Origin: a virus
IMG/VR virus record: IMGVR_UViG_3300009788_000330
Span: 1-21,608 of that record
Length of the DNA stretch: 21,608 nucleotides
Reading direction: 5' to 3' (one strand)
Under the pieces are notes generated by a model, which saw nothing but the letters and a program-made list of their open reading frames with translations, was not told the DNA's origin and searched no databases. A program made the translations under genes and the position numbers. Positions 311 through 20,041 of the stretch are shown piece after piece (the stretch's first letter is position 1; every line of letters starts with the position of its first letter).

Positions 311-1056
311 TGGCTACGAAGAAAAGACGAAAGGCACCATCAAAAAAGAAAGCAAGACGTGGAGGCAGGAATAAGAATGTCATAACGGTTGACTTCACCG
401 ATGTGGAAGCCGGAGGTGGTATGCCCACACCGGACGGTTACTACGTCGCCGAAATCCTAAGTGCTGAACAAGAGGTCAGCTCAAATGCCAACGACATGAT
501 TGTCGTGCGCTGGAAGACCCACACAGGTTCGACAGTGTTCGACCGTTTCGTATTGCTACCGCAGTCACTGTGGGTACTCCGTACCGCGCTGGATTGCTTG
601 GGCTTCGAGACACCGGACGGTCCGTTCGATCTCGATGTCGATGCACTGGTCGGCGAGCGTTGTGGTCTGGAGATTGTCAACGAAGAGTACGAAGAGAAAG
701 ATCAGCCACGTGTAACTGGCTACCTCACCGAAGACGTGGCAGAGCAGTATATTGCTGAGGCAGGTGGAGAAGTACCTGAAGAGGAGGAAGAGGAGCCCGA
801 AGAAGAAGAAGAACCTGAAGAGGAAGAAGACGAGGCTCCCCCTGCAAGGGCGAAGAAGAAGAAAGCTGCCAAAAAGAAAGCAGCTAAGAAGAAAACCGGA
901 AAGGCTCTGCGCCCCGGCGCTCGTGTCGTATTCGAAGACGAAGACGGCGACGAGATTCAGGGTGTCATCGAAGGCATCGAGGACGAGCTGGCAATCGTGG
1001 TCGATGACGAAGAAGGTGAGTGGGAAATTCCACTCAATGAGCTGAAGAAGGCCTAA
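310..1056 (+). CDS. SSB-like DNA-binding protein with Glu/Lys block-charged linker
   Basis: A 248-residue protein in four parts. Residues 1-23 are a Lys/Arg-rich arm. Residues 24-145 look like a small beta-rich domain with a pattern (PDGYYVAEI, then a hydrophobic strand, VFDRFVLLP, and a helix with CLGFE) that resembles phage DUF669/single-strand-binding-like proteins; this is family resemblance by eye. Residues 155-175 are almost pure glutamate with periodic prolines, followed at 181-196 by lysine blocks separated by Ala-Ala, like histone H1 tails. Residues 200-246 (starting RPGARVVFEDEDG) form a compact acidic beta domain resembling Tudor/KOW-like barrels. The gene overlaps its neighbours at both ends by TAATG junctions. 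Likely role: coating single-stranded DNA for the helicase and nuclease that follow. The linker is much longer and more charged than the acidic tails of ordinary SSBs. Confidence 0.65.
   Translation: MATKKRRKAPSKKKARRGGRNKNVITVDFTDVEAGGGMPTPDGYYVAEILSAEQEVSSNANDMIVVRWKTHTGSTVFDRFVLLPQSLWVLRTALDCLGFETPDGPFDLDVDALVGERCGLEIVNEEYEEKDQPRVTGYLTEDVAEQYIAEAGGEVPEEEEEEPEEEEEPEEEEDEAPPARAKKKKAAKKKAAKKKTGKALRPGARVVFEDEDGDEIQGVIEGIEDELAIVVDDEEGEWEIPLNELKKA
772..897 (+). repeat. low-complexity GAA/GAG then AAG/AAA codon tract
   Basis: Purine-only codon runs encode a poly-glutamate segment (residues 155-175 of the SSB-like protein) and then Lys-Lys-Lys-Ala-Ala repeats (181-196). The coding strand is nearly all purine over about 120 bases, so the tract may also form unusual DNA or RNA structure and is prone to slippage. 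Repeat number would be expected to vary between relatives. Confidence 0.8.
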
Positions 1057-2471
1057 TGATTCGGACGGAACTTCGTCCGTATCAGAGTGAAGCTGTCGCT
1101 GCGGCTCTGTCGTACGATGGCTTCGCTTTTTTTCCTGAGCAACGCACGGGGAAATGTCTAATATCTCTGGCTGTGGTGGATCACCACAAGCCGGAGGTGT
1201 TAGTCATCCTGTGCCCAAAAAAAGCGCTGGCAACATGGGACGAACAGATTGAAGAGCACCTTGACAACGATTGGGGTTGCGAAATCTACACCGTCACGTA
1301 CCAAGAACCCGTCAAGGATAAGCAGCTCCGAAAGGAGTGGTACGCCGAAACACTGAAGTAGCAAAAAGATGGTGTGTCGATGATGATCATCGCTGACGAA
1401 GCACACATGATCAAAAAACCGGGAGCTGCCCAGTCTCGGTTTGCACGTACGCTTGCGAAGCGTTGTCAGTGGAAGCTCGCACTCACGGGCACCCCAATTG
1501 ATGAAGGCTTCGAGCAGTACTGGGCAGTCTTCGATTTCATCGGGAAGAATGAGATTTTTGGTACCTACGGGGACTTCAAAGACCAGTACCTTATTTTTGA
1601 GGAGCGTCAGCGGCGTGATAAGCGAACGTATCCTGTGATCGTCGGCTACCGATACACCGAAGAAATCATGGAGAAGATTCACACGTACAGTTACCGCATC
1701 ACGTTCAACGAAGCACGGAAATCCATGGGCAAGCAGCCTGTGAAGGTGCGTAGAAAGAAAGTTAAGTTCGATCTCAAGCGTAACACTCGTCACATCTACG
1801 ATGAGCTGAGGAAGGATCTAGAAACCACCATCGAAGACATCACGATTGATGTGCCGTTGCCCATGCACCTAATCCAAAAACTACAGCAAGTGTGCGGAGG
1901 TCATCTCCTGCATCAGGAGCGCATTCCCGGTGAGAAAAAACGCAAACGCATCGTCCTTCCCGTCGGTACGGAGAAGCTGGACAGGCTCATGGGGCTCCTG
2001 TCAGGTTTCGGTCAGGAGAAAGTCGTCATCTGCTGTCGCTTCACGCACGAAATCGAATCCATCGCTAAGGAGTTCGACGAGTTCGGCTGGACCTACAAAA
2101 TAATCTCTGGACAGCACGAGTGGGACGGTCAGTTCGACGTAGACTTCGTCCTGCTACAGGTGAAGAGCGGACTTGGGTTCGACCTGTCAGCAGCGAATAC
2201 TTACGTGCTGTACAGCTGGGATCACAGTCACATTACATTCGAACAATCACGTATGCGCATCATGCACATGGAGAACACGGACTGGGTGAAGTACTTCTTC
2301 CTGATGGCACGCGACACAATTGAAGATGAATACTATGAAGCGATTGCGAAGAAAAAAGATTTCTCGACGCTCGTCCTCGACCGGTACCGCAAGAAAAAAG
2401 TACGGCACCGTCGAGGAACAGCTCGCAAAGGTGCGCGGAGAATTCGCAAAACCCGTGCGCTCCTCGCCTAA
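1056..2471 (+). CDS. Snf2-like superfamily 2 helicase, interrupted by in-frame TAG
   Basis: Reading through the TAG at 1359-1361 gives 471 residues with a full SF2 helicase motif set. Before the TAG: Q-motif-like RPYQ (7-10), Walker A variant QRTGKCLISL (29-38), motif Ia around ILCPKKALATW. After it: DEAH box IIADEAHMIKKPG (111-123), motif III LALTGTP (about 141-147), then the second RecA lobe with VVICCRF, an ISGQ segment, and a motif VI-like EQSRMRIMH (about 396-404). The last 28 residues are very basic. Neither fragment alone (101 residues, or about 365 from GTG 1374 or ATG 1380) has both the ATP-binding loop and the DEAH box. Role: ATP-driven DNA translocation or unwinding in replication or recombination. 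Walker A has Cys where Thr/Ser normally binds the metal. The TAG may be a mutation, an assembly polymorphism or a readthrough site. The start overlaps the previous stop. Confidence 0.85.
1359..1361 (+). other. in-frame amber codon inside the helicase gene
   Basis: The codons run CTG AAG TAG CAA AAA GAT GGT, with coding sense resuming at once in the same frame. One C-to-T change from CAG would create it. At least four genes in this window (ending at 4573, 6641, 14724 and 20909) use TAG as their stop, so TAG is not globally recoded here. No strong ribosome-binding site precedes the possible restarts at 1374 or 1380. Confidence 0.9.
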
Positions 2472-4519: not shown

Positions 4520-4733
4520 CTGGCTATTTCATCTCTGGGACACCGACGGTGAATGTATTCGAGGCTGCGGAGCTAGGGCTGCTGGAATCCGCGACCCGCA
4601 CCTGCACGCCCGCGCCCAAACCGGCGTGACGGTGGTGCACGACCCGTCCCTCTCTGCATCGCCCGCGAAAGTGCGCCTTGTTGGTCCGCCATCCCTACCC
4701 GATTTCCTCCGCCACCACCGACAGGTCCGCTAG
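4497..4733 (+). CDS. small Cys-knuckle protein, antisense-overlapping the late operon end
   Basis: 78 residues from ATG 4497 with a strong GAGGGAG ribosome-binding site. The first 27 residues (C5, H13-L-W, then ECIRGCGAR) recall a common small phage family with pattern C-x-H-x-W and R-x-C-x2-C-G, probably zinc-binding. From residue 26 on, the reading frame runs opposite the C-terminal coding region of the 688-residue minus-strand protein, so that half has no independent support and its length may be opportunistic. It is the last plus-strand gene; function unknown. Confidence 0.5.
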   Translation: MNIHCKNDWLFHLWDTDGECIRGCGARAAGIRDPHLHARAQTGVTVVHDPSLSASPAKVRLVGPPSLPDFLRHHRQVR

Positions 4734-6639
4734 GCGGACGATTCATCATTCGCTGTCGTTGCAGGTAACCTCGCTGATTCGGCGGCACCATAGGTCCACC
4801 GGGAATCCCCGGTCCACGTTCATCCCCCATCGGGTATTTCCCCGGCGGAGGTGCACGCCTGCCACCCGGCGGACGTTTCCACGGAGGAATGCCTCCACCA
4901 CCCCCAGTGATTGGTCCCATGTCACCAATCGGGTCCCATCCGGGACGACCTATGTTGGGACTAGGTCCGGTCCTGATTCTTGGATCGTAGTCACCGAACC
5001 CCCCACCTCCCGGCATTGGATTTGGATCTCTTCCCATACCTCGTCGCAATCCCATGATGCGTTTATCCATCTCATTAGGACCGTAATTCCTTCGTTGCCA
5101 CTCTGCTTCTTCCGGGCTTCTCGGTGCCATGATTGCTCCCTGCATACTTCCACCTCCCGGTCCACCCATCATCTCGGCTGCGCGTCGTTGAGCGTCTGTT
5201 GCCCCACGATATTCATCCGCTGACATCCTGTATTGTCGAGAAGTTCCCGGTCCCATTTCACCTCGTGCCGCCATGCCTTGGAACCCTCGTTGTGCACCTG
5301 CTCGCTGAGCTTCTACCTGCGCACGATATCCTTCTGGATTTGCTGCGACTGCTCGGGGATCAATACCCGGAGGTAAACCCCCCACCTGAGCTAAGCCACC
5401 TTGAGGTCTGCCACGACCGAACCTTCCACCACGCGAAGGACCAAGACGTCCTCGTGCCTGCTGGGCACGATTTGGGATGCCTGCCTGAGGTGCAGCCATA
5501 CCTACAGGTGCTGCTGCAGGTGCAGGTGGATTAAACCTATCGGCAATTCCACCGAACTGATATCCCTGAGGCTCCTCCATGTATTCGGGACCGGTTCCAG
5601 TAGGTGATATCCACGGTGGCACACCTCCAGCCGGTGCAGCTATCGCAAGACCACCAAGTTGATAACCGACACGACCACCTCGGGCTTGATCTATTGATTC
5701 AAGATACTCCTCGGCCTTCTCCACGTTGGCTGTCTCGGGATCATCAATGAACATACCTCGTAACCACGCCAACATCCCTCCATCCTCTTCTTCCACTGCT
5801 GCAGGTTCGGGCGGAGGGGGAGGATCTTTGTGAAACCTCGTCTCCCAATACTTGTATGCTGCCGGGTCCGCTGCTGGATCGTGAGGGTTTGCTCCCTCTG
5901 CATGACCGGGGCGAACTTCGCCACCACCTTGATAGTAATTCACGTGACCTCCTTCGGCACCGCCAAATATTTCATCAATTTTTCCCTGATGTGCGCGTAA
6001 TTTATCTCGGTATGAGCTTTCTTTCAGTGCTGCTTGCTCTTCAGCGGATGCCCCAACATAACTTGCAGGCTCCGTCGGGATAATTCTCGGTGGAGGTCCA
6101 CTGGGTCCACCGGGACCACCTTCTCCTGTGAGCGTTTGCTCAGGTGGATACCACATTCTGTTTCTCAAATCCTCGGGGTCACCTCCGGGAGCCGGAGTCC
6201 ACCCTGCTTGTCGTAACCCAGAGACGACACCGATGTACCCCATAGGACCGCTATACCCCATTCGGTCAAGCATTTCTTGAGTTGTACCAGCCTCACTCCC
6301 CCAAGGAAAAGTAGGAGCTTCAGGAGCTGGAGGAGGTGAGTACGTCGTTGTAGATGTTCCTCCTCCGCCATTCGTTCTTCGTCCGCCACGACGACCTCCT
6401 CGTTGGAAGTGAAGCTGGTTAAGAGGTCTCTGTCGTTCACTGCCAGAGTCCACTTCGTTCATAGCGGAAAGACCACCTTTGGCATATCGGTTCTCGGCAA
6501 AGCCACCGGAATATTTCTTGTCAGCTTCAACGAACTCTTGTGCTACTGCACGTGACGGTGGACTCTTCATCCGACTTGGTGTCCACCCGTGTGCAATGGC
6601 TCGCATAAGTTTTGCCTGCTTAGGCGTCTTCGATGGCAT
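4573..6639 (-). CDS. Gly/Pro/Arg-rich disordered phage protein with small conserved N-terminal domain
   Basis: 688 residues, last gene of the minus-strand operon, with a strong GGAGGAG ribosome-binding site overlapping the previous stop. Residues 1-45 (MPSKTPKQAKLMRAIAHGW and following) resemble a small conserved phage domain usually found as a stand-alone protein of unknown function. The rest is largely disordered: proline runs, glycine runs, and RGG/FGRGR boxes at about 79-88, 402-411 and 672-685. It contains several aromatic-x-x-Gly-Gly motifs (YAKGG 52-56, YYQGGG 235-240, YQLGG 326-330, YQFGG 360-364) shared with other virion proteins encoded nearby. One better-folded island around 260-320 is acidic and Trp-containing. 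It ends in TAG. Function unknown; I infer a virion or scaffold-related role from the motifs and operon position. Confidence 0.75.
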   Translation of the reverse strand: MPSKTPKQAKLMRAIAHGWTPSRMKSPPSRAVAQEFVEADKKYSGGFAENRYAKGGLSAMNEVDSGSERQRPLNQLHFQRGGRRGGRRTNGGGGTSTTTYSPPPAPEAPTFPWGSEAGTTQEMLDRMGYSGPMGYIGVVSGLRQAGWTPAPGGDPEDLRNRMWYPPEQTLTGEGGPGGPSGPPPRIIPTEPASYVGASAEEQAALKESSYRDKLRAHQGKIDEIFGGAEGGHVNYYQGGGEVRPGHAEGANPHDPAADPAAYKYWETRFHKDPPPPPEPAAVEEEDGGMLAWLRGMFIDDPETANVEKAEEYLESIDQARGGRVGYQLGGLAIAAPAGGVPPWISPTGTGPEYMEEPQGYQFGGIADRFNPPAPAAAPVGMAAPQAGIPNRAQQARGRLGPSRGGRFGRGRPQGGLAQVGGLPPGIDPRAVAANPEGYRAQVEAQRAGAQRGFQGMAARGEMGPGTSRQYRMSADEYRGATDAQRRAAEMMGGPGGGSMQGAIMAPRSPEEAEWQRRNYGPNEMDKRIMGLRRGMGRDPNPMPGGGGFGDYDPRIRTGPSPNIGRPGWDPIGDMGPITGGGGGIPPWKRPPGGRRAPPPGKYPMGDERGPGIPGGPMVPPNQRGYLQRQRMMNRPPSGPVGGGGGNRVGMADQQGALSRAMQRGTGRAPPSRRFGRGRAGAGRGFQQP

Positions 6640-6640
6640 G

Positions 6641-7219
6641 CTACTCCTCCACTTCCCCAGTGCGACCGTCGATGGTCACGTTATCTGGTTTCGGTTTGAT
6701 CAGTGACAAGATGCTGGATATAACCTCCATCTTCGTCTCGTCACGAATACCTATGGGTGAACCGTCATCCTTACCAGACACGTTCGTGTGATGACGATCC
6801 TTCCAGTTTTCTTTCTGCCGGTTGGTCAGCCACAATTTGATGGCTGCAACATCTGGCTTGTAATGTTTGATCGTTTCAGCACGGACGATTTCTCCGTCCC
6901 ACTGAAAAATTTTCTCTTCGTCGTGCGTGTAACCGATAGCACTTTGGTACAACGCACCCAGCACTGCAGTATCAGCGTCGGTGTAACCTGCTTCAAGCGC
7001 TTCTTTGAACAACGGGTACTGTGCTTTCCACTTGCCCAGCTGCTTGCGACTGATGTCAAAAATCTCTGACATCTGTTCTTCACTGATACCTCGCATTGCA
7101 ATCGCACGCACCTGATCGAGGTGATCAGGGAGAAACAGACGGTGTTGCTCAGCCAGCAGGTGACCTGCACTGTTACGTACAAATTTCCTCTTCCCGTTTG
7201 TCAGTCGTCGTGCTGGCAT
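6641..7219 (-). CDS. terminase small subunit-like HTH protein
   Basis: 192 residues. A helix-turn-helix at about 35-66 (AMRGISEEQMSEIFDISRKQ then LGKWKAQYPLF) is followed by a helical region with ADTAVLGALYQSAIGY and KPDVAAIKLWLTNRQKENW, an arrangement I associate with phage terminase small subunits of the HTH type that recognise packaging sites. No large terminase gene lies on either side, which is unusual, so a DNA-binding regulator remains possible. AAGGGTGAG precedes the start; the stop of the upstream gene overlaps the ATG (TAATG), and its own TAG stop abuts the next start (TAGCATG). Confidence 0.65.
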   Translation of the reverse strand: MPARRLTNGKRKFVRNSAGHLLAEQHRLFLPDHLDQVRAIAMRGISEEQMSEIFDISRKQLGKWKAQYPLFKEALEAGYTDADTAVLGALYQSAIGYTHDEEKIFQWDGEIVRAETIKHYKPDVAAIKLWLTNRQKENWKDRHHTNVSGKDDGSPIGIRDETKMEVISSILSLIKPKPDNVTIDGRTGEVEE

Positions 7220-9432
7220 TACTCACCCTTCATAAAGTTCACGAGTTTGTCCGGGAGCTGCCCGATGTCACCGACAGCACCCTTTGCCGTATCTTCCAGA
7301 TTCATCAGCAGATTCTCACCACCTTCTTTGAGCGACTCTGCTGTGATGTTCACCTCTGGGAAGTAATAGTTATCTTGCTTCCACTGGTTCATACCTGCTT
7401 GTATGAAAGGTCTCATCTCCCTCATGATGGCAGCAGTCGCTGCTTCATCACCTTCGGTGTGTGCCATTCTCAGGAAGAAATTACGGAAGGTATTCTGATA
7501 GAGCCGCCCTGCCGTACCTGTAAGTGCAGAAATACCAACTACTGAATCCAAGATGCCGAATATGATTCCAGCACCTGCGGCACCACCTGCAGTGGCACCG
7601 GCAGCAACCATGCCTGCGCCCTTACCTGCTGATTGCGCACTGGCTGTTATCCGCAGGTACTCACGTACACCCTTAACTACTTCCTGATCTTCTGGAGTGA
7701 ACCATTCGTTAATGACCCTACGATTACCCGGCTTATCGAGCCACTTCATGAACTTCGCTGGGTCTGCAACGCTGGGAGCTTCCGGTGTCCAAGTTGATTC
7801 TTCCAGACCTCGCAGTAGGAACCGTTTGCGTGCAGTGGCTTGTCCTTCTGGCGTTAGCCTATCAAACAAGTCGGTGAGCAGTTTGGGTCTGCCTGTATCC
7901 ATTACCTTATCGACGATGACGTCATCGAGCTGGTTATTCTTGATTGCCTCTTTCAAGACACCTTCAGAGATATCATCCGCCTCTTTGACCCACGCAGCCT
8001 CGATCATCTCTTGTGCTGCCTTCGGTACCGTCTTCGAGCCCTTTCCAAAGATCGGAATATTTTCTGGGTGGACCCACTCCTGCTTACCCCAGAAACGTTG
8101 ATTCATCATGCGCTTGACGAAACTTTCCATCACTCGCGTGCCGTAATCCGTCTCGACATCGATGCCGTACTTGGCAGCTAACTCTGTTAGTGCATCGACG
8201 CGCTGACGTGCCATCTCTCTACGTTGCGCACCAGTACCTGCGATAGGAATACGTTCGACGATTGCTTTGAAGATCATCTTGGCAGGTGTCATGCGCTCAG
8301 CCACTGCATCAGTGGTCATGATCCGTTTACCAGTCTCCTTCGCATAGTTGATGGCTTGCCGAACATTTGCGGGAACGACATCCTTGGTTTTATCTGCGAG
8401 ATAGCTGGGTATCTTCGTCATCGTCCTTGCCAGAGGATCGAATACATAATCAGGCACGACACCGAACGCAGTGCTCACTACAACGTCAGCAGTGTTGAAC
8501 TCACCACCGGCAGCTACCTGCCCAGTTTGCAATCCTGTTTCAGTTACAGCTGATCCCGCCATCATTGCCTTTGCGCTTGCCTTTCTGGCCTGTCTGACTG
8601 CCAATCGTCTTGCTGTGTCGCTACCAACATCTTTAGCTGCTTTAACAGCAGCCGCACGCATCGGTGCCGATGCCACTGTGGCGTAACGACCAACAGGTGT
8701 GTACGCAGCACCGATAACTCCCATCTGCATCGCATCAAAAGAACTGATACCCGGACGATTAATAATGGCCCGTGCACCTGTCTTTGTGTTGTTCAAAATC
8801 AATGTGCCATCAGGAGCTTGTTGAAGACCAATGTTGGGAAACATCTGTGACGTTTTAATCTCACCCGTGGTGGGGTCCTCGTACTCGACCTCCTGCGTAA
8901 ACATCTCTGCGATCTCATTCGGATCAGTCGCTGTCATCATTGATGCCGTCATTGCCGCTTGTGCCCACTTCGGGTAATCCTCAGGGAAGAAATGTTTCGC
9001 ACCGATTTGCGAAAACAATTCAGGTAACTGTAACGATGCACGTGACGTGCCCCGTTCCATGGGGAAGTCCGTTGGGAATTCAATGTCGGGTTCTTCCTTC
9101 GCACCACGGGGCGCGAACGGATTCTTTCTCTGTGGTCCTTCATCTGGACCGGGCGCGAAAGGATTTACCCTATTCATCCCTCGTTCCGGGAGGATTGGTC
9201 CGGCACCAGCTGCAGGGGAACCTGTCGCTTCGAGAAGAGCCTCGACATCTCCGGGTTGCTGCCCAGCTGCGATGTCTGCTCGTTGCCCAAGTGCTCCCTC
9301 AGGAGGCATACCTTCCAGAGGCATACCTTCCAGAGGTTCGACCGGACCTGTCATGATGGGCTCATCGATGCGAGCCTCGTTCTCCTCCAGCTGGGCGAGC
9401 TGTTGAAGTAGTTGCTCTTCTGTTGTCGCCAT
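7219..9432 (-). CDS. internal virion / DNA ejection-type protein
   Basis: 737 residues. The N-terminal 130 are Pro/Gly/Glu-rich and disordered, with a perfect tandem EGMP(L) repeat near 35-45 and two NPFAP boxes. A helical body follows (ALPELF-like and many Ala/Lys/Arg helices at 230-600). A Gly/Ala-rich hydrophobic stretch at about 605-637 (GMVAAGATAGGAAGAGIIFG and on) looks like a glycine-zipper membrane-inserting helix. The C-terminus is acidic. Large helical virion proteins with a single membrane-active segment, encoded near tail genes, are typical of short-tailed phages that inject proteins to build a channel through the envelope. I do not recognise a specific named family. Start overlaps the preceding stop. 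Confidence 0.7.
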   Translation of the reverse strand: MATTEEQLLQQLAQLEENEARIDEPIMTGPVEPLEGMPLEGMPPEGALGQRADIAAGQQPGDVEALLEATGSPAAGAGPILPERGMNRVNPFAPGPDEGPQRKNPFAPRGAKEEPDIEFPTDFPMERGTSRASLQLPELFSQIGAKHFFPEDYPKWAQAAMTASMMTATDPNEIAEMFTQEVEYEDPTTGEIKTSQMFPNIGLQQAPDGTLILNNTKTGARAIINRPGISSFDAMQMGVIGAAYTPVGRYATVASAPMRAAAVKAAKDVGSDTARRLAVRQARKASAKAMMAGSAVTETGLQTGQVAAGGEFNTADVVVSTAFGVVPDYVFDPLARTMTKIPSYLADKTKDVVPANVRQAINYAKETGKRIMTTDAVAERMTPAKMIFKAIVERIPIAGTGAQRREMARQRVDALTELAAKYGIDVETDYGTRVMESFVKRMMNQRFWGKQEWVHPENIPIFGKGSKTVPKAAQEMIEAAWVKEADDISEGVLKEAIKNNQLDDVIVDKVMDTGRPKLLTDLFDRLTPEGQATARKRFLLRGLEESTWTPEAPSVADPAKFMKWLDKPGNRRVINEWFTPEDQEVVKGVREYLRITASAQSAGKGAGMVAAGATAGGAAGAGIIFGILDSVVGISALTGTAGRLYQNTFRNFFLRMAHTEGDEAATAAIMREMRPFIQAGMNQWKQDNYYFPEVNITAESLKEGGENLLMNLEDTAKGAVGDIGQLPDKLVNFMKGE
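9304..9333 (-). repeat. perfect tandem 15-bp repeat
   Basis: Two identical 15-base units (AGGCATACCTTCCAG on the plus strand) lie head to tail in the disordered N-terminus of the ejection-type protein and encode a duplicated Leu-Glu-Gly-Met-Pro unit. A degenerate third unit follows in the protein (PPEGAL). Likely recent slippage. Confidence 0.85.
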
Positions 9433-11363
9433 TAGAGATTCGCTCCCAGTTCACGCAGCGCCAGTCTGACCTCGTCGGTCAGATCGTAGTGTTCTTCGAA
9501 CGCTTCGATCAGGTATGCCTGTTCGTCGGGATTATCTGCAGCCCCTTGAAACAGCTTGATCAGTTGCTCTTCTTTCAACGGAGGTGCAGTGCGCGTCGCT
9601 GCGTCGTACTCCATTGCTGCTTCAGCTTGCTGCTTACGGAAGCGCAGGTATTGATCTTGCCAGAAAGACTTCTCTTCGGTACCCGGACCTTCCGTAAGTT
9701 CCTGCGCAGCGTACTCACCTCTGGTGATAATCTCGTCTAACACGTTCATCTGCTCATCGAGGAGACCGAGATTCGCCTCAGTGTCTTTGCCGAGAATAGC
9801 GTTCATGTCCGAAACTTTTTTGAACTCGTAATCAGTTTTGTTACCTGTCAGAACTCGTATGTCAGATAGCACTTGCCTACCAAACATTCCGTGTAATACA
9901 GAAAGGGTAGTGTTGTCATCGATGACCTCGCTGATGCCAGCCCACTGTGCAACCTCACGGATTTTTTCACTCAAGCCACTCGTGTCTTCACGCAGAGTCG
10001 TCAAGAGTCCGTACGCTCGTTGCAACCTGTTCACTGAAGGGATAGCTTCTACACCCATTTTTGCTTGGGCAATCATATTTTCCATGGCTTTCCCTGCCGT
10101 CACGGTTGCTGCTTTCTGAGCAGCTGCTTGAGCAGGAACTTTCCCCGGATCAACAATCCGGTAAGGCTCACCTGTAGCCGCATCACGCTCAACACGACTG
10201 ATGGTGGTGCCATCAGGCTGCATGATGATGCTTATGATATTTCTTTCCGCGTCTGCTTCCTTGATCGTGCCGTCTTTGACAGCCTGCAGCTGATCCGGAG
10301 CGATAACAGTCTGCGTGCCGACAACACGTGCACGACTGGTGCTCTTGAAACCCGACAAGTTCTCCAACGCATCGTAATAGTCACTGGCAATCTCGTGTTC
10401 TCTTTCAGCAAACTTTTGGTGTTGAAGCGCCTGCTTCTCTTCGATCAGTGCCTGCTGTGCTGACTGTTCTCGCAATGCACCTGCAGCCATGCCGATGTTC
10501 TCACCGAACCCACCTGTCTGTGTCGGTGCCAACATACCTTGAGCGAGCGCGAACCACCTGTCCTGTTCAGCTTGTTTTTGTTGTCTGGCTTGACGTTGTT
10601 CGAATTCACTCTGTCCCGCTCGCAACTGCTGAAGGGCTGTGTCACGATTCATCCTCGCCATCTTCTGCAGGTCGGGGGCAGGGCTCGGAGTCACCGAAGC
10701 GAGAATCTCATCGACACCTGTCGCCTGCGAGACATCGAAGAAGCCTCCTTCTTCTTCATCTTCATCCAAATTTACTGCCGCCAATCCACCAGCTTGAAAT
10801 TTTTTCACCACTCCACCTCGTGCAAATTTTCTAGGTTCCATACCAGAGTAGATCTGTCTCATTTTCTTCAGTTTTTCCAGTGAGAATCTATCCCTCGGTG
10901 CGCTCTCACCAAGCTGGTTTAATATTTTTTGCATCTTTGCTGAACGCTCCATCTCCTGCTGCTCTTCTGCAATAGGGTCATAAAAAACATCCCCTGTCGT
11001 AGGCTGCGGTACTCCACCGGGACCGTTGGGCACCCACTCCATTGCGCCACCTGAATACACTTCGATGCGACCACCCTCTCCACCTGCGTCGAACGATCTC
11101 TCAATTGCTTCCGCTTCTAAAACTTCTGGGTCCGTTTTTCTCCGTGCTCCACGATACAATTCCCACTTTGACATCGGTGTCGGTTCTTCGTTGACGTAAC
11201 GCACTTCTCCGTCTGGAGTCATCACAGCCATCGCAGTGCCCCCGTCGGGAGTGGAGACGCGACCAACGACTCTCCGTTTCATTTCCTCGTATGACTTGAG
11301 ACGGCTTCCGCCGGGACGTACGTCTCCTCCTTCGTCGTATGCCTGTTCTACTTCAGCCCGCAT
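9432..11363 (-). CDS. coiled-coil virion protein with aromatic-Gly-Gly motifs
   Basis: 643 residues. The first 200 are mixed and partly disordered, carrying YDEGG (9-13), FDAGG (91-95), YSGG (103-106), FARGG (180-184) and FQAGG (189-193). Then comes an acidic patch (DEDEEEGG) and long Gln/Arg/Ala-rich helices (LRAGQSEFEQRQARQQKQAE) predicted to be coiled coil, and a helical C-terminal half. No enzyme motif is seen. Position between two ejection-type genes suggests an internal or tail-associated virion protein. AGGA precedes the ATG, which follows the end of the 56-residue gene by three bases. Confidence 0.65.
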   Translation of the reverse strand: MRAEVEQAYDEGGDVRPGGSRLKSYEEMKRRVVGRVSTPDGGTAMAVMTPDGEVRYVNEEPTPMSKWELYRGARRKTDPEVLEAEAIERSFDAGGEGGRIEVYSGGAMEWVPNGPGGVPQPTTGDVFYDPIAEEQQEMERSAKMQKILNQLGESAPRDRFSLEKLKKMRQIYSGMEPRKFARGGVVKKFQAGGLAAVNLDEDEEEGGFFDVSQATGVDEILASVTPSPAPDLQKMARMNRDTALQQLRAGQSEFEQRQARQQKQAEQDRWFALAQGMLAPTQTGGFGENIGMAAGALREQSAQQALIEEKQALQHQKFAEREHEIASDYYDALENLSGFKSTSRARVVGTQTVIAPDQLQAVKDGTIKEADAERNIISIIMQPDGTTISRVERDAATGEPYRIVDPGKVPAQAAAQKAATVTAGKAMENMIAQAKMGVEAIPSVNRLQRAYGLLTTLREDTSGLSEKIREVAQWAGISEVIDDNTTLSVLHGMFGRQVLSDIRVLTGNKTDYEFKKVSDMNAILGKDTEANLGLLDEQMNVLDEIITRGEYAAQELTEGPGTEEKSFWQDQYLRFRKQQAEAAMEYDAATRTAPPLKEEQLIKLFQGAADNPDEQAYLIEAFEEHYDLTDEVRLALRELGANL

Positions 11364-11366
11364 GTG

Positions 11367-11537
11367 TCAATCCTGTTTCCATTTCAACTCGCGCTCTTCG
11401 CCTTCATCGGAGTCCGGTTGGATCAATCTATGACCAAGGATGGTACCGATACTTTCACTTGGGTCGGGACGGAGTGACTTCGCCCAGCGAGTCAGTCCGC
11501 CCCAGCCGCTTTTCCCAAGCCGTACATCTTCTTCCAT
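11367..11537 (-). CDS. 56-residue hypothetical protein bridging two virion genes
   Basis: Read by hand on the minus strand: ATG at 11537, TGA at 11369-11367. It starts within the last codons of the upstream gene in another frame and fills the only apparent gap in the late operon, ending three bases before the next ATG. The product begins MEEDVRLGKSGWGGLTRWAK and ends EERELKWKQD; the second half is acidic and hydrophilic. A purine-rich AGGAGG lies about 15 bases before the ATG, farther than ideal. Support is the exact fit to the gap and the coding-like composition; family unknown. Confidence 0.55.
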   Translation of the reverse strand: MEEDVRLGKSGWGGLTRWAKSLRPDPSESIGTILGHRLIQPDSDEGEERELKWKQD

Positions 11538-12613
11538 GCCGCTGAGGCAAGACCTCCTATTGCGTATTCTTCAGGATCAACGTAGCCACCTTCAGCATCA
11601 CCCGTCAGTCCTCGGTACACACCGTAGCCACCGACAAGTTGTGACAACGGTGATGGCTGGTAAACCGATGCCGGTCCAACATCAGTACGCGTCTGTACTC
11701 TCGGCACAAACGATGGCGGCAAGCCGCGAATGAGTTCTGACATTTGTCCCAGACGTTGCCATGGCAGCTCACGTTGCTCCAAGAAATCCTGATACGCGAG
11801 GTCCATACTTCCCTGCTCAAGGCCTCGCCGTTGCGCACCGATAGCTTCGAGTGTTGCAGCATCGAGGGCACCCATTCGCTGAGCTTCTGCACCCATACGA
11901 CCCAGTCCCTCAGCCCCGCCATACATTGCAGCAGCCTGAGCTTCGTCGAGGGCACCTGATACACGTGCCAGTTCTCGTGCACTCGTAATGTCCTGCCCGC
12001 GAATGTCAGCTGCCTGACCGTAGGCTCCAGAGAGTGCTTCAAGACGTTGCGCTTCGAGTCCCTCTTGAATATCCCTCATACCCTGCACACCGATGTCTTC
12101 CATCGAGCCAGTGCCACCTCGTGAACCCAGCTGCCCTGCGCCTGCGAATGCACCCTGCAAGCCGGGAAGGAATTTCTCCTCAAGAGTACGAGTAGCAAGT
12201 TGTTCCTGCCGGTCGAGCACGTTACCGATGTACGGGTTCATGTAATCTTCGACGACGCCGGGATCGGTCCACTTCCCAGTTGCCTGATCGATGTACGGCT
12301 GCGCTCTCTCTCGCATACCTGAAGCTACATCTAAGCCACCCATGTAGCCTTGGGCTCCGGCTTCTTGGTACGGTTGCCACGCACCAATATTCTGCTCAGC
12401 GAGCCCGAACCCGGCTTCTTGTTCCTCCGTGAAGCCAGCAATCCTCGGTCCACCGTATGGGATGTAGGGCTCAGCTGCCGCAGCATTCGCTCGTGCGATC
12501 AGTCCCTGCGTGTAGTCCGACATCCATTTCGGAGTACCTTCTACAGTCTGCCCGTAAGTTGTGACCGACTGTGGAGGTTTTCCTTCAAAAAGGAAGTCTA
12601 AGTTCGCGCCCAT
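11492..12613 (-). CDS. conserved virion / ejection-type protein
   Basis: 373 residues, mostly helical and Ala/Gly/Glu/Gln-rich. The middle contains WTDPGVVEDYMNPYIGNVLD followed by a Gln-rich helix and FAGAGQLGSRGG; this Tyr-Met-Asn-Pro-Tyr plus glycine-rich AG-x-x-GSRG combination is one I recognise as recurrent in virion proteins of marine phages, usually of unknown or DNA-injection-related function. The C-terminal 24 residues hold an aromatic-Gly-Gly motif (YAIGGLA, about 350-356) followed by a basic helix. The start lies directly after the previous stop (TAAATG) with GGGAG upstream. Confidence 0.7.
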   Translation of the reverse strand: MGANLDFLFEGKPPQSVTTYGQTVEGTPKWMSDYTQGLIARANAAAAEPYIPYGGPRIAGFTEEQEAGFGLAEQNIGAWQPYQEAGAQGYMGGLDVASGMRERAQPYIDQATGKWTDPGVVEDYMNPYIGNVLDRQEQLATRTLEEKFLPGLQGAFAGAGQLGSRGGTGSMEDIGVQGMRDIQEGLEAQRLEALSGAYGQAADIRGQDITSARELARVSGALDEAQAAAMYGGAEGLGRMGAEAQRMGALDAATLEAIGAQRRGLEQGSMDLAYQDFLEQRELPWQRLGQMSELIRGLPPSFVPRVQTRTDVGPASVYQPSPLSQLVGGYGVYRGLTGDAEGGYVDPEEYAIGGLASAAWKKMYGLGKAAGAD

Positions 12614-14719
12614 TTATACTCTCCCTGCCGCGGTCATCGCTCGACGGAGTTTTGCCATCCCGCCTCGTGCCATGTACTGGTGCGGTGCCTTCGCCTTGTG
12701 ACTGAAGCCACCCTTCTTCAGGTTGGTCGCTTTATGCTTACGAAGATTCTGGCGCATCTCATCAAGTCGGCGAGCGCCCGCACTGCCTGATCCGTCACCC
12801 AAGAGTGCGACCGATTCTGCGTCCATGACGTACTCTCCGTCGCTCAGTCGAGCGGGGATGTCATCGGACCTACCAGTGCCCTGCCCCTTAACATAACGTC
12901 CAGTAGCGGCGACTGAGGGAGCTGCACGTGGAACGTCTGCATTTTGCGACCAGTAGTCAAACTCACCTCCACGCTGATAGCCACCACGAGCCTGCGGCAA
13001 GGCCGCTCCCAGCTGCGGCGGAGTCCAGTCGCCCGTGTTGGGGTCTTGCGTATAACCAGCTGCGGTCAAAGCTCCTGTTCCAGCGACACCGACCATGTTG
13101 GCAGGCACCGGCTGACCAGCTGCAATCATAGCTTGCATGTCGCCCCCCGCTCCCGGAGTTGGAGTTGTCGGGTCGGTGGGTACTCCAGCGAATGGCTGCG
13201 GGTCCATGAACAAGTGCTGTCCAGACTGAGGTGCCCCGGCCTGTCCGTAGGTGTAGTACGCACCGGGGTCCATGCCTTGGAACTGCCGATTCATTTCGTA
13301 AAGCGGCAAGGGCTCATCAAAGCCCGGTGGCAGCTCAGGAGGTGGACCTTCTTCGTACTCGCCACCACCCATTGCACCAGCAGCCATGATTGCAGGCAGC
13401 GCATATTTCTCTAGCATCCCCGGTCCTGTGCCAGCTTGGGCACCAGTTGCTGGCGTAGCAACTTGCGTTGCAGGTTTACCTCCACCACCAACGGGACCTC
13501 CCGGCAACCCAGCTTGGTTTGCTGCCATCATTTCAGGAGTGACATCTTCAGGTTGGACGTAGGCACCCGTAACAGGGTCGTACATCGCTTCACCTGACAG
13601 GATGGATTCGGTGTCGGTCGCACGTCGAGCTAAGACCTCGCCTGCCTGAGGTTCTGCCAATCCTAAGACATCGCGCCCTTTCTCAGTGATGCCTTCCATG
13701 GTCGGACGCATCATCTCCCCGGTAGCACCCATAAGGGCACCTTCAACGAACTCACCACCAGTCAGTTCGGCACCTGCGCCACTCGCCAGACTGGCACCGA
13801 CAATGTCTGCGGTCCGTTCGCTTAAGGCGTCACCAGCAACCTTCCCGACATAATCACCAGCAATATCTCCAAGCCCTCCAGCGACAGCTCCGGAAATTGC
13901 ACCGGTCATGAAGTCACCACCACCGGCTGCACTCAACCCACCTCGAACCAGAGCGTTACCAATGACGCCTTGCGCTGCTGCCCCTACACCCGGTGCCAAT
14001 GCACCTCCGATGAAAGCACCAAGACCCGGTACAAAAATCGACAGTGCAATAGGTGCGAGGACCTGAAAGATCTTCGAGGAAACAACCTTCTTCACCACTT
14101 TCTTGATGCCCTTCCAGATCTTGCTGAAGAATCCGTACTCAGGTAGTCCAGTGTTCGGGTTGGTATCAGGTTCGCCCCACATGCCTTTGATAATTCCCAG
14201 CTCTTCCTCAGTCATGTGGACCAGCATCTCGTCTTCGCCACGTCCTGCTTGTCGCGCCCTCGCTGCTGCAGCCTTGACCTTGCCTCCCTTGGCATAGGCA
14301 CGTTCGACCGCACCACCGAATTTGTAGAGACGTACCTTCTTGATATCTTTCTGGGGCACACCCTGCGCCTTCATCAGCTCCTGAGCTGCCTGCGTGTAGA
14401 GCAACTCCTTGCCACCCGGTGTGTCCTCGATTTTCTGCACCTGCTTGACCATGGATTTCGATGCGCCCTGTTGAGCCATCAGCTGAGCCAGACCACCTTT
14501 GGGCTGCAACGTCGTCGCAGCCTGCTGCTGTCTCTGAGCTTTGTTCTGCATCTGTGTCCCTGCCATAAGACGTCGGGCTCCTTCAGCCGAAGCGCGGAGT
14601 TTGTCCTGATTGGTGTCGAGCAAGCTCGAAAAGGACTCACCTCGTGACACAGCCGCAAGATTACGACCTTGACCCACGAGTTCCTTACCTTTTTCCATTG
14701 GACCTTTATGTAATGGCAT
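12614..14719 (-). CDS. large membrane-active virion protein with tape-measure-like C-terminal motif
   Basis: 701 residues from ATG 14719 (AGGA seven bases upstream); longer in-frame starts at 14779 and 14788 overlap the previous gene and are less likely. Residues 1-130 are helical and Gln/Ala-rich. YKFGGA (132-137) and YAKGGK (142-147) belong to the shared aromatic-Gly-Gly motif. Residues 200-216 (KIWKGIKKVVKKVVSSK) form a strongly cationic amphipathic helix, followed by a hydrophobic, glycine-rich region to about 330 that looks membrane-inserting. A Pro/Gly-rich middle follows. From about 618, SDDIPARLSDGEYVMDAES and AGARRLDEMRQNL resemble a motif seen near the C-termini of phage tape-measure and related tail proteins. 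YMARGG (682-687) lies near the end. Likely an injected or tail-lumen protein that breaches the host membrane. Confidence 0.7.
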   Translation of the reverse strand: MPLHKGPMEKGKELVGQGRNLAAVSRGESFSSLLDTNQDKLRASAEGARRLMAGTQMQNKAQRQQQAATTLQPKGGLAQLMAQQGASKSMVKQVQKIEDTPGGKELLYTQAAQELMKAQGVPQKDIKKVRLYKFGGAVERAYAKGGKVKAAAARARQAGRGEDEMLVHMTEEELGIIKGMWGEPDTNPNTGLPEYGFFSKIWKGIKKVVKKVVSSKIFQVLAPIALSIFVPGLGAFIGGALAPGVGAAAQGVIGNALVRGGLSAAGGGDFMTGAISGAVAGGLGDIAGDYVGKVAGDALSERTADIVGASLASGAGAELTGGEFVEGALMGATGEMMRPTMEGITEKGRDVLGLAEPQAGEVLARRATDTESILSGEAMYDPVTGAYVQPEDVTPEMMAANQAGLPGGPVGGGGKPATQVATPATGAQAGTGPGMLEKYALPAIMAAGAMGGGEYEEGPPPELPPGFDEPLPLYEMNRQFQGMDPGAYYTYGQAGAPQSGQHLFMDPQPFAGVPTDPTTPTPGAGGDMQAMIAAGQPVPANMVGVAGTGALTAAGYTQDPNTGDWTPPQLGAALPQARGGYQRGGEFDYWSQNADVPRAAPSVAATGRYVKGQGTGRSDDIPARLSDGEYVMDAESVALLGDGSGSAGARRLDEMRQNLRKHKATNLKKGGFSHKAKAPHQYMARGGMAKLRRAMTAAGRV

Positions 14720-14723
14720 TGCT

Positions 14724-14990
14724 CTATCCTGTAAAATTTGTAGTTGAAAACATTCTCTCTGCCCACTCGCGCCAGTCATCGTACGCAAAAGGATCAGGTA
14801 CGTCCTGTCCCAGTGGATCTACTCCGCCGAACACTCCTGATGCCCACTGCTGCCACTCTTCTGGGTCGTCCAACCGTTCGAACTGATCGTCTGTCCCAGA
14901 CACGGGATCAGTGAAGAATCCCAGTTGCCCTGCCATGAAATCCGCCCACTCGATTACGTCTTTAAAACCGACAGGATTGATGATGGTCAT
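14724..14990 (-). CDS. Trp-rich acidic 88-residue protein
   Basis: The ATG at 14990 has AAGGG upstream and overlaps the nozzle gene stop (ATGA). Three imperfect repeats with Trp-Ala cores are visible: VIEWADFMAGQLGFF, EEWQQWASGVFGG and DDWREWAERMF. It is strongly acidic and ends in TAG five bases before the next start. Small proteins of this type occur beside virion genes of aquatic phages as far as I recall; function unknown, possibly a structural adaptor or chaperone for the large protein that follows. Confidence 0.7.
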   Translation of the reverse strand: MTIINPVGFKDVIEWADFMAGQLGFFTDPVSGTDDQFERLDDPEEWQQWASGVFGGVDPLGQDVPDPFAYDDWREWAERMFSTTNFTG

Positions 14991-16534
14991 GTCTCAACCC
15001 TTCCGTCTGCAGGCTCGATGTGTGCAAAGGTCTTACCCAGTTCGTAATTCCCTCCACGCACATTAGATTCGAACCTGAAGCTCATCAACCGGCGCACGTC
15101 TTTGAACTTCACAGTTTCTTCGTCGGGTGTAGAAGGTGTTTCGAATATGGTCCGGGTACCTGCCTCCGTCACATCAGCTTTTGCATTGGCACGTCCCTTC
15201 AGGGTCACAGTCATGTCACCTATCTGCACAAAGTCAGGCTCAATTCGAGCACACCGAACTGACTGAGTACTTTGCCCAGTGTCGAGCAACGACATCTCGT
15301 GCGTCTCATAGAACGACTGCACAGCACTGATCTGTGACGTGCGAATTTTGTCGAACGCTGTCTCGTGCTGCCAAAGAGTACGACCGTTAAAAGTCTTATC
15401 GTTATCTACCATGAACGGGAACTGATACACGTCCGCAAAGACACCTGATGTGCGTCCCTGATTGGTATCGTCAGAGTCAGGTAACGGTGTGTCGTACCAG
15501 TACCCTTCGCGTGCATTGAAGATCACTGCGTGAGTACACTCGGTTGCATTGCCACGTGGATAGCACCACCAAAGCTCACCGTAGCGTGGTACTTTGATAC
15601 CGAAAACTTTGTTCCGATGCGAGAAGTTGAGGTTGTCAAAGAAAAAGTTCTGGTTCATATCGTTGGGCATCTCTCGCACAACACCATTGAACAGCAACCA
15701 ACGATCAACACCGGGCCAATAGTAAATGCCGTCCATTTCGAGGATGCCCTGCGAACTCAGAACCGTGATACCTCTGGCAACGATGTCGAAGGCAAAGTTC
15801 GGTCCACCACCCGGTACGAACGTTGCTCGGATGAGCGAATCAAGAGACCAGAACAAAGCAGCAGGACCCTGACCTGCACCTCGAAGAGGGAGTCCCTTAA
15901 TAATCTTCTGTACACCAAGATTAAATGCGACAGGCTGATCCGTCACATTATTGGCCTGAGACTGAAGGATAAGTCCCTTGCTACCATATGCGAACATGTA
16001 CACACCGCTGACAACAATCCCCCCACTCACAGGTCCTTCATTAGCATTCCAATCAGCATGTAAGCCAGCTGTTGAAAGCGGCGTAGTTGCAGTCATGGTG
16101 TCAATGTAGATATCACCACCAATTGAGTTATCGATCTCAACTGCGTTGGGAGCTGCGTGTGCAACGAGAATATGATTACCTGTACCTCCCGTATCGGCGA
16201 AGACATCGAACTGCCACAGATTGTTGATGTCGTCATTGAAGGGATTCGGCGTGCGGTCGGCGAAAATACTTAGCGTACCGTTCGAAACTTGGTATTGCCC
16301 AAGTGTCATTGGATGACCCAGATGCAGGAACTGGACGTTGTTCTCGGAGAAACTGGTCATGCCGCGGGTAATCTCCGGCACGGTGTCAGTCACCTGCTGG
16401 TAGCCCCCAATCTTTTTCGGCTTGCCACGTTGAAACCTACACCACCGACCGTCGATGTAGTGCTCGCTGTCGAAACGAGTACTGTCCCGTTTGATACCGG
16501 GTGTCGAGACGAGGAGTGCAGGTTGCTCAGCCAT
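14987..16534 (-). CDS. tail nozzle / hub-like protein (P22 gp10 or SU10 nozzle type)
   Basis: 515 residues, beta-rich throughout, with repeated short strands such as GDIYIDTM, GVYMFAYGSKGLI and WLLFNGVVREM that suggest a beta-propeller. It opens with STPGIKRDSTRFDSEHYIDG and WCRFQRGKPKKIGGY, and closes with MSFRFESNVRGGNYELGK, IEPADGR, a terminal pattern I associate with tail-hub/nozzle proteins of short-tailed phages (P22 gp10-like). Role: extending the tail tube below the adaptor and closing it until infection. Operon order (adaptor, fibre, this protein) supports the call. The start overlaps the preceding stop (TAATG). Confidence 0.7.
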   Translation of the reverse strand: MAEQPALLVSTPGIKRDSTRFDSEHYIDGRWCRFQRGKPKKIGGYQQVTDTVPEITRGMTSFSENNVQFLHLGHPMTLGQYQVSNGTLSIFADRTPNPFNDDINNLWQFDVFADTGGTGNHILVAHAAPNAVEIDNSIGGDIYIDTMTATTPLSTAGLHADWNANEGPVSGGIVVSGVYMFAYGSKGLILQSQANNVTDQPVAFNLGVQKIIKGLPLRGAGQGPAALFWSLDSLIRATFVPGGGPNFAFDIVARGITVLSSQGILEMDGIYYWPGVDRWLLFNGVVREMPNDMNQNFFFDNLNFSHRNKVFGIKVPRYGELWWCYPRGNATECTHAVIFNAREGYWYDTPLPDSDDTNQGRTSGVFADVYQFPFMVDNDKTFNGRTLWQHETAFDKIRTSQISAVQSFYETHEMSLLDTGQSTQSVRCARIEPDFVQIGDMTVTLKGRANAKADVTEAGTRTIFETPSTPDEETVKFKDVRRLMSFRFESNVRGGNYELGKTFAHIEPADGRVET

Positions 16535-16905: not shown

Positions 16906-19397
16906 TCTACGATCTCCAATTCAAACCACGCACCCCGCGTTATTGTCGTCGCGTTGCCAGCCTGAGTTAGTATGTAAGCTTCGTAATAATCAGTGCCGGG
17001 ATTGTTAACTTCGATGATGCCGGTATCAATTCCTGTCCAACCCCACTGACTTCCTGTTCCAGCTGGTTCAGGTTGAGTCCCAAGTGGAATCCAATTCAAA
17101 TAACCGTTATCAACAGTAAGGACCGCACTTCCATTCCTTCTTATGAGTACATGCTTGAGACCGACGCCAGCACCTAACAGACCTTGCATTCGGAAAGCAG
17201 CTCTGATCTTAATCTTAGTAACTCCTACTGGAGGAGTGAAGCGAGTGTTGAGACCTCCGGTAGTGTGGATACCGTCAGTGTCAAATATCTCATTGTCATA
17301 CGGAACTGCGGTCGCTGCCTGAGTCGGTCCCGTGAAGTTATTGTTCGGAGTGTCGTCCCTCGGCCAACTGAAACCTGCAGTCCTGAATGCTTTGACTCCT
17401 CGGTACGCGGCTCCACCACCACCGAGATCCGACGTGGTCAGTACTCTCTCGAATCCTACTCCGGTGTTCAGGTTATTAGCCTGAGCGCCACCCTGTGCAG
17501 GAGTTCGTGTCCGAAGAACTTCAACACCATCATCGTAAATAGCGACGTCGTTGTCCGGATTCATCTCTAGAAATATGCGAGGATTGCCTCCAGCATCGAA
17601 TCCTCTAAGTTCAGTGTTCTGACCATTGATCTGGTTGGTCAGGTGCATGATTGCTTCAGTGTTTGTCCAACCCCAGTCGCCTTTTATATTGCCGCCAGAG
17701 TCTTTGAGCTGAATTGCTTGGAACTCAGTTTCAGTAGCGCCATCAGCAAACAGATCAAACTGCGCTGCCAATGCGGCACTTGCTCGTAATGTTCCACCCC
17801 CCACAAAAAAGCTAACGGCAGACGAAGGACCAGACCTGAGCTGAATAGCCCCACCGCTCATGAGGTTTTCAATGATTAGATTAGGACTGGCAGTCGGCTG
17901 ACCAACTCCCCAGCGGACAGTTTGATCCGCGTAAGTTCCAACGATTGCACGAATCTCGGAGTCTACATTCCCGTCACTTCGTATCTCTGCTACGCCGAGT
18001 AGCTCAGCGCTTACACGAACATTGGCACTACTGTCGAACAGTTGCTGCGGTGTTGGGTCAACAATGTCGGAAAGAAGTGCCTTCTTCGTGATGTCCGAGT
18101 CATCGACGTCTTGGAACGTTAGGAAGTCAGCTGCATCAGGCACTGCTGTTGTGACAGTAGTGTAGTCAAGGAAGACATCATCGGGATTGACTCCAACACC
18201 TACTCCCGGAGCGACCTGAAATGTCCTGTCCGCTTGAAGAGTGCCACCACCAACCAGACCATCTCCGGCGAACAGCTCTAATTCATCGTGTGCAGCTTCT
18301 AAATTATTCCGTGCATCCGTCGGATTGTTTGCCCCAGTACCACCTTGTACGACCGAAAGCGGGAGCGAGATGGACGTAGCATTTACTGCGTTAATTACAT
18401 TGACAGCATCACAAGAGAAGATTGCAGTCTGACCTTGCTCCAGTTCCGGAGGTGACACCTGTGCAGGTGTCGAAATCGTCAGTGCAAAAGCACCTGACGT
18501 CTGATTTTCACACCAGTACTGTTGCGTGGTATTTGGCACGACGATGCGTCGGTCACCAGTCAATGCACCCGTAAAGCGATACGAGATCCGATCTACGTTC
18601 GCCCCAGAGAGGACAAAGTCACCAGACCCCGGAACGGGAAGCGAAACAAAATCAAACCCAATGACTGAAGAAGTAGTGAGTCCGACGGTGAAAAAGTCCG
18701 TGCCATCTGTGAAGATGAACGTACTGCCACTAGGCTCAATAGTTATGTCTGTAGAACCGTCAATCGTTCCTGACGGAGGAACAATGGTCAGTGTGCCCGT
18801 GCCAGAGTTACGGATCATGAAGAACCAATCGTCCATAACTACGCCCGGATCAGGCAGATCAGCTTGTCCTGCACCCCCTGTCCAGATTAAACACTTCGCT
18901 CGGTCGCCATCGACAACGGTAATCGGTGATACACCTTCGATGTCGGAATCGATTTTCTGATTCAACGTATTCGAAATAGGTTTGATGCCCGCACCACCCA
19001 GTGCGGCAGCTTGTGCCGTAGAAACAGTAGCGCCCATCTGGAAGGTTGACCACGTGCCAGCTTGAGTCGAGTTATCAGTGAGAACAACAACCCATTGCTT
19101 ACCCGGCTCTACGGTTACAATCGGTCCCCCCGTGTTATCGAGTACGTCGAAGTCATTAGCGCCCACGTTATTGACTGTGGTTTTATTACCCGTGGAAGTG
19201 TTACGGGCATCCGGCATGCTGATGTTAAGCGAACCAGCCGTAGCGTCGATATCCAAGAAATCGGCGACAACATTCTGCCCTTCAATCTGTTGTTCACGCG
19301 CCCACTGCAGTTCAATATCGACAGCAGTCGTAATTAAGAGATAACTAAGCTGCGACGGGAAGATTGTTTCTCCACCAAAGACGTCGGTGTAACCCAT
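16902..19397 (-). CDS. tail fibre / receptor-binding protein
   Basis: 831 residues. The N-terminus (MGYTDVFGGETIFPSQLSYL and on to about 40) looks like a virion-anchoring segment. Residues about 60-345 hold three divergent copies of a roughly 60-residue beta module. A typical fibre stalk follows: SVVQGGTGANNPTDARNNL (349-367) and GDGLVGGGTLQADRTFQV (378-395). The C-terminal region (about 670-831) carries VPYDNEIFDTDGIH, FTPPVGVTKIKIRAAF and RNGS, the pattern of a C1q/TNF-like jelly-roll head, ending WFELEIVE. This head would contact the host surface. GAGGGAG lies upstream of the start, which overlaps the adaptor stop. Confidence 0.85.
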   Translation of the reverse strand: MGYTDVFGGETIFPSQLSYLLITTAVDIELQWAREQQIEGQNVVADFLDIDATAGSLNISMPDARNTSTGNKTTVNNVGANDFDVLDNTGGPIVTVEPGKQWVVVLTDNSTQAGTWSTFQMGATVSTAQAAALGGAGIKPISNTLNQKIDSDIEGVSPITVVDGDRAKCLIWTGGAGQADLPDPGVVMDDWFFMIRNSGTGTLTIVPPSGTIDGSTDITIEPSGSTFIFTDGTDFFTVGLTTSSVIGFDFVSLPVPGSGDFVLSGANVDRISYRFTGALTGDRRIVVPNTTQQYWCENQTSGAFALTISTPAQVSPPELEQGQTAIFSCDAVNVINAVNATSISLPLSVVQGGTGANNPTDARNNLEAAHDELELFAGDGLVGGGTLQADRTFQVAPGVGVGVNPDDVFLDYTTVTTAVPDAADFLTFQDVDDSDITKKALLSDIVDPTPQQLFDSSANVRVSAELLGVAEIRSDGNVDSEIRAIVGTYADQTVRWGVGQPTASPNLIIENLMSGGAIQLRSGPSSAVSFFVGGGTLRASAALAAQFDLFADGATETEFQAIQLKDSGGNIKGDWGWTNTEAIMHLTNQINGQNTELRGFDAGGNPRIFLEMNPDNDVAIYDDGVEVLRTRTPAQGGAQANNLNTGVGFERVLTTSDLGGGGAAYRGVKAFRTAGFSWPRDDTPNNNFTGPTQAATAVPYDNEIFDTDGIHTTGGLNTRFTPPVGVTKIKIRAAFRMQGLLGAGVGLKHVLIRRNGSAVLTVDNGYLNWIPLGTQPEPAGTGSQWGWTGIDTGIIEVNNPGTDYYEAYILTQAGNATTITRGAWFELEIVE

Positions 19398-20041
19398 TAG
19401 ACATTCTCCCTCGTAACTTGTCTGTCGATGATGCGCTTAACATCCTGCGCCTCGAGTATTGCAACATCTTTTTCGTAGATGGCTTCCCAAGTAGGGATGC
19501 GTTCATCGTTTTTCAAAAAGGGAGTCGCCTGCAGCAGCGCACCATGAAGCAGACTGTTGGGGGCGAAGTCCGTTGTCCAGTTCGTTTGATTGGTGTCGTC
19601 CAGCAGCGCAGGCAACTCCCAGTAATTAACTTCAAATGGATACGCAAGGTCAGCTGACGGCGCTATTAGCCAGTTGAAGTAATCGTAGTCGCCATAAAAC
19701 TTCGGCTGATCAGTGAGATCTTCATCCGGCCAATAACGTCGCATGTACTCGTAGGAACGAGCAAACAGAGGTGTTCGAATCTGCGTTGCTCCCACACCGA
19801 AGTTAATCGAAATTGTGTCACGCCAGCGATTAGGCTTCGGCACCACGGACTGCCCGACACCAAACGTATCTGTGACGACCTTTACAAATCCTAAGATTTT
19901 CAACCGGTTCGCCAGCTCCCTTTCAGCCAGATTAATCAAGCTGGGGAGCTGCTCGAACACGGTCGGATCGACAGCAGTACCTCGCTCCAGATACTTACGC
20001 ATATCTTCCTGAAGCGAATCGAATGTCATCGAGACAGCCAT
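19397..20041 (-). CDS. tail adaptor protein (SU10-adaptor-like)
   Basis: 214 residues. The sequence has the run MTFDSLQEDMRKYLERG, an early helix LINLAERELANRLK, a middle block RWRDTISINFG with LFARSYEYMRRYWPD, and PKFYGDYDYFNWLIAP then YPFEVNYWELPALL, closing with a helical SLLHGALLQATPFLKND. I recognise this as the phage adaptor family of short-tailed phages (head-completion ring between portal and nozzle, SU10/phiEco32 type). The location immediately before fibre and nozzle agrees. AGAGGA lies eight bases before the ATG. Confidence 0.75.
   Translation of the reverse strand: MAVSMTFDSLQEDMRKYLERGTAVDPTVFEQLPSLINLAERELANRLKILGFVKVVTDTFGVGQSVVPKPNRWRDTISINFGVGATQIRTPLFARSYEYMRRYWPDEDLTDQPKFYGDYDYFNWLIAPSADLAYPFEVNYWELPALLDDTNQTNWTTDFAPNSLLHGALLQATPFLKNDERIPTWEAIYEKDVAILEAQDVKRIIDRQVTRENV

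Follow-up and report, generated by a model that had tools for sequence, protein, structure and literature searches.

The analysed window is a virus record of 21,608 nucleotides (21.6 kb) in which end repeats are absent. A gene for an SNF2-type helicase (1056-2471, plus strand) is split into open reading frames of 101 and 365 amino acids; the counterpart in relatives is a single protein of about 470 amino acids, and the window holds either a broken gene or a sequencing error. Read from the right, the leftward genes start with small proteins and continue with a SU10-type adaptor (19397..20041, minus strand; PF24175, E 3e-20), an 831-amino-acid tail protein, a 123-amino-acid protein and a nozzle-like virion protein (14987..16534, minus strand; phrog_3287, E 4e-25). 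Two paralogues of the 831-amino-acid tail protein are encoded in the relative G001 (L061-L062; positions 6061-9408 and 12701-15031 of G001). After the nozzle gene follow an 88-amino-acid protein, p701 (12614..14719; all window coordinates from here on are on the minus strand), p373 (11492..12613), p643 (9432..11363), p737 (7219..9432), the terminase small subunit (6641..7219; phrog_309, E 6e-37) and p688 (4573..6639), which adjoins the terminase gene. The N-terminus of p688 is a 'MPSKTPKQAKLM' domain (phrog_16759, of unknown function), the remainder is rich in glycine and proline, and homologues were found in 28 loci.

The adaptor and nozzle genes adjoin a cassette that ends with p737, as expected of the ejection cassette of a SU10-like podovirus, and the order adaptor, tail, nozzle and cassette matches that of SU10. 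SU10 virions contain five ejection proteins, gp20-24, which leave the particle when the genome is released (PMC9509320). The genes of gp20-24 come after the SU10 tail genes. One cassette protein, p373, has homology to phrog_4287, a known family that bears the name DNA ejection protein (E 8e-8); no homology to such a family was detected for p643 and p737. The homology of p373 and the SU10-like gene order make an ejection function most likely for p701, p373, p643 and p737; for p701, an ejection or pilot role is predicted from its position after the nozzle and from a C-terminal module common with tape measures. Bacterial genomes scanned for p373 yielded no relatives and consequently no host was assigned.

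An earlier note had pointed to an aromatic-x-x-Gly-Gly pattern in four otherwise unrelated proteins of this region. All strings that it listed are present in the sequence, although YMARGG near the p701 C-terminus (12659..12676) is a Y-x3-GG variant and not a strict copy, and FQRGG in p688 had been missed. Strict [YF]xxGG copies number 14, of which six are in p688, four in p643, one in p373 and three in p701. The p688 copies are YAKGG (residue 52; 6472..6486), FQRGG (residue 78; 6394..6408), YYQGGG with two overlapping registers that count as two (residues 235-236; 5920..5937), YQLGG (residue 326; 5650..5664) and YQFGG (residue 360; 5548..5562). In p643 they are YDEGG (residue 9; 11325..11339), FDAGG (residue 91; 11079..11093), FARGG (residue 180; 10812..10826) and FQAGG within FQAGGLAAV (residue 189; 10785..10799). 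The p373 copy is YAIGG within YAIGGLA in the C-terminal tail (residue 350; 11552..11566), and p701 contains YKFGG (residue 132; 14312..14326), YAKGG (residue 142; 14282..14296) and YQRGG (residue 581; 12965..12979). The motif is lacking in p737 and the terminase small subunit. The nozzle was likewise thought to be free of it; FVPGGG is found there at residue 239, and the 831-amino-acid tail protein has FFVGGG and FDAGG, in both cases near chance level. The motif-bearing proteins are probably packed inside the head and fired into the bacterium.

Shuffling was used to compare these numbers with composition. The four proteins were expected to contain 2.92 copies (sd 1.67; P = 2e-4), or 5.93 when runs of glycine were shuffled as units (P = 0.0026), so that the proposed recurrence exceeds expectation under both schemes. 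The other 18 proteins of the window have 5 copies, against 2.1 by composition and 4.4 with glycine runs kept, which is no clear excess. Aromatic residues at offsets -8 to -1 of GG in the four proteins number 1, 2, 1, 1, 2, 13, 5 and 5, each against an expectation of about 3.3. An artefact of composition or low complexity would have some footing in the glycine-rich nature of p688 and p701 and in the fact that p701 alone and p373 alone are not significant with glycine runs kept; p373 by itself has 1 copy against 0.6 expected and gains significance only through its homologues. The sharp peak at -3 and the conservation at protein termini described below speak against such an artefact, which is highly improbable and was ruled out by the shuffles together with a residue-by-offset scan. 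A repeat at the DNA level was also ruled out: the copies use different codons, which identifies a protein motif. Common ancestry of the four proteins was rejected as well, as their best pairwise BLAST match has an E of about 1 and the profiles of p643 and p373 do not match each other; beyond the motif, the proteins show no detectable similarity.

A single scan with p373 supplied the relatives, 59 loci of which the majority contain the complete cassette; patterns from p643 used as query retrieved no relatives directly. All residues and offsets around GG were then scored in 824 representative proteins of these loci. Among homologues of the four proteins, tyrosine at -3 is the strongest residue-by-position signal (139 observed, 38.9 expected, z 16.1), followed by leucine at +1 (z 10.8), valine at +2 and alanine at -2. 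Other proteins of the same loci lack this signal, with 171 tyrosine and phenylalanine residues at -3 against 153 expected. The excess of aromatics at -3 holds for the non-redundant homologues of each protein (p701, 84 versus 32 expected; p373, 44 versus 16; p643, 32 versus 5; p688, 60 versus 24), and no such peak was seen in homologues of p737, the 831-amino-acid tail protein (p831) or the nozzle. A residue table of 237 copies reads [YF], Q or A, any residue, GG, L, Y or A, and V or A, which gives the fuller consensus [YF]-[QA]-x-G-G-[LA]-[AV]. The motif is not universal: SU10 ejection proteins are without it except for one, and Caulobacter phage GB2A has a single copy in its cassette, at the C-terminus of p701. 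In many phages that share the C-terminal module of p701, the motif is confined to a single protein of the cassette.

The location of the motif is kept in dozens of related phages, namely at floppy ends and linkers. Of 27 p643 homologues, 22 have it among residues 1-20, where 0.19 would be expected (MANYQAGGLAAATG, MKKRYQSGGLAEAVG and MQRFQEGGLAEVA are examples), and 25 of 35 p373 homologues have it after residue 290 (5.5 expected), with 3 before that residue. In both families the terminal position is kept although the flanking sequence has been replaced. The p643 of the window has an extra front domain of about 185 residues, with copies at its start and at the point where it meets the common part; shorter homologues begin at the second of these, and FQAGGLAAV aligns with their N-termini. 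AlphaFold assigns a pLDDT under 50 to two stretches of p643 (residues 11-33 and 174-228) and to one of p373 (residues 297-356), the latter protein being modelled as a long helix with a low-confidence tail. These segments hold every copy of the two proteins, the first (residues 9-13, in the N-terminal tail of p643) only in part, with the exception of FDAGG at residue 91, which falls where the model is confident and could be a chance copy. The motif segments are likely disordered; proof is not provided by these models, as they are weak overall (mean pLDDT 67 for p643 and 59 for p373). A fold search with the p643 model gave no match. Within the low-confidence segment of p643 an island of conservation is found (alignment A3: Q190 in 20 of 25, G192 in 23, G193 in 22 and L194 in 19), and the fixed motif residues are more conserved than their surroundings, as expected of a short linear motif.

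These placements could also be read as a partner-free glycine linker or hinge that favours an aromatic residue, used for unfolding through the portal or marking recombination joints between modules. Copies at domain edges that flank an insertable domain, and mostly in low-confidence segments, would suit such a hinge. A pure linker needs neither tyrosine at exactly -3 nor leucine at +1 nor alanine or valine at +2, however, and would not explain conservation within a variable disordered segment or the lack of the motif in p737, an equally long protein of the cassette; we regard this alternative as rather unlikely. The residue-specific enrichment, the local conservation in low-confidence segments and the kept terminal position agree with the earlier proposal of a short linear signal located at protein ends and domain boundaries, and conservation in homologues was likewise confirmed.

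Among p701 homologues, LY..GG occurs in the N-terminal part in 30 of 34, corresponding to YKFGG of the window, and a copy precedes the 'SDGEYV' module in 27 of 34, as YQRGG does here. This module (GTGRSDDIPARLSDGEYV...; 12671..12901; residues 603-647) matches the C-terminal module of tape-measure proteins (phrog_6090 and others). In many other phages it ends with YLxGGR, and those phages often have further copies. The module would cover at most the copies of p701 and not those of p643, p373 and p688. It is common to tail tape-measure proteins of long-tailed phages, yet the phage studied here is short-tailed.

The motif was also found in further head-region proteins of relatives. Longer relatives (43-55 kb) encode an extra basic protein of 144-307 residues with 3-6 copies on the tail side of the major capsid gene (for example L061:3633-4478, L066:2003-2599, L069:4441-5364 and L070:1263-1697). 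It is present in 47 viral loci, has a conserved core 'TMDHGxxPAxxGxxQxExEAGG' and gave no PHROG match. An 11-row profile of this protein matched 6 of 32 records. The protein was rejected as an unambiguous marker of genomes with the motif because the profile-negative genomes G033, G022 and G015 carry other motif-rich proteins. A second protein, encoded between the portal and coat genes, is scaffold-like by place and composition and has an acidic start. In the lineage of the window and a few others it has FRTGG or a close variant towards the C-terminus; neither is seen in GB2A and several other lineages. This FxxGG is weakly associated with the tail motifs (4/0/2/5 in lineages tallied by hand; Fisher P 0.06, kinship ignored). 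In the relative G002, a gene for a GroES-like co-chaperonin lies between the portal and scaffold-like genes (L066:10779-11237), and a single protein of 832 amino acids combines a uracil-DNA glycosylase domain with a family A DNA polymerase (L064:10097-12595).

Such a distribution bears on whether the motif acts during assembly or after ejection. In the latter case, motif tails would link the ejection proteins to one another as these build a channel through the cell envelope, or aromatic-glycine segments that stick to each other would keep the internal core together. The motif is mainly limited to the ejection-type cassette and occurs in multiple copies with glycine spacers, an acidic stretch follows it in p643 while the small protein is basic, and in module-bearing loci p373-like proteins with the C-terminal motif tend to occur together with p643-like proteins that have the N-terminal one (17/3/6/11, OR 10, P 0.003; a weak statistic that ignores phylogeny). 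All of this would be compatible with a role after ejection. That the small basic protein near the head genes and the scaffold-like protein also carry it fits assembly better, and action after ejection is therefore considered doubtful.

Proteolytic processing, one of the roles suggested earlier, would mean maturation cleavage after GG and would trim short peptides off p643 and p373 at the terminal positions. The proteases of adenovirus and ASFV cleave GG sites. The aromatic residue of the present motif would lie at P5, however, and not at the P4 of these proteases. None of 30 head and accessory proteins of G002 matched a protease family, and Peptidase_S78 was absent from the 12 records searched, an absence by HMM being weak evidence. 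As 3-6 cuts would in addition shred the small basic protein, cleavage is not favoured and appears quite improbable.

Known systems offer partial parallels. The internal proteins of T4 share a capsid targeting sequence, a short conserved signal on diverse proteins that directs them into the prohead core (PMC3012670). As in T4, a short sequence is shared across unrelated proteins whose location would be internal. The T4 signal is N-terminal and is cleaved by the prohead protease, whereas the motif described here is glycine-based, multiple and found at N-terminal, C-terminal and internal positions. In P22, the podovirus ejection proteins gp7, gp16 and gp20 are recruited during procapsid assembly, and the available portion of one account states that scaffold is required to load ejection proteins, via the N-terminal portions of gp7 and gp20, and describes no shared short motif for the three (PMC8402733). 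The scaffold column was proposed as the docking site (PMC12005531). No homology of the window proteins to P22 proteins was detected. SU10 (Kuravirus) gp20-24 share the gene order after adaptor and nozzle, and p373 provides the match to a DNA ejection PHROG; they differ in containing the motif only once (FGGGG). Encapsulin cargo-loading peptides are short hydrophobic and glycine-containing tags on cargo tails that are bound by a shell of HK97 fold, and their consensus differs from [YF]-[QA]-x-G-G-[LA]-[AV].

The motif, its residue specificity, its positions and its conservation are established. Fixed residues in probably disordered surroundings, a terminal or junction place, several copies and occurrence in several unrelated proteins of one assembly point to a short docking motif. 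By analogy with P22 and T4, its most likely function would be head loading. Borne on disordered ends and linkers of p701, p373, p643 and p688, each copy would bind a weak hydrophobic site on one common partner during head assembly, with several copies per protein giving avidity. The candidate partner would most likely be the scaffold, the inner coat surface or the growing internal core. Unrelated internal (ejection) proteins and p688 would thereby be collected into the same procapsid. Of the earlier suggestions, capsid loading or a common partner fits best, and we tentatively prefer this docking motif as the explanation, with confidence somewhat short of even.

No description of this motif in phages was found in the literature searched. 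Even for P22, the selection of unrelated ejection proteins for the head is understood only in part. A wider reading, possible but less probable, is that many environmental short-tailed phages use a general packaging code. A five-residue aromatic-glycine tag, also present on the scaffold-like protein, would be recognised by one head component, and any protein could acquire it at a floppy end for head loading and injection. If the tag is indeed portable, sequence alone would suffice to recognise the packaged and injected proteins, mostly unannotated, of uncultured phages, and the tag might serve to load reporter proteins into phage heads.
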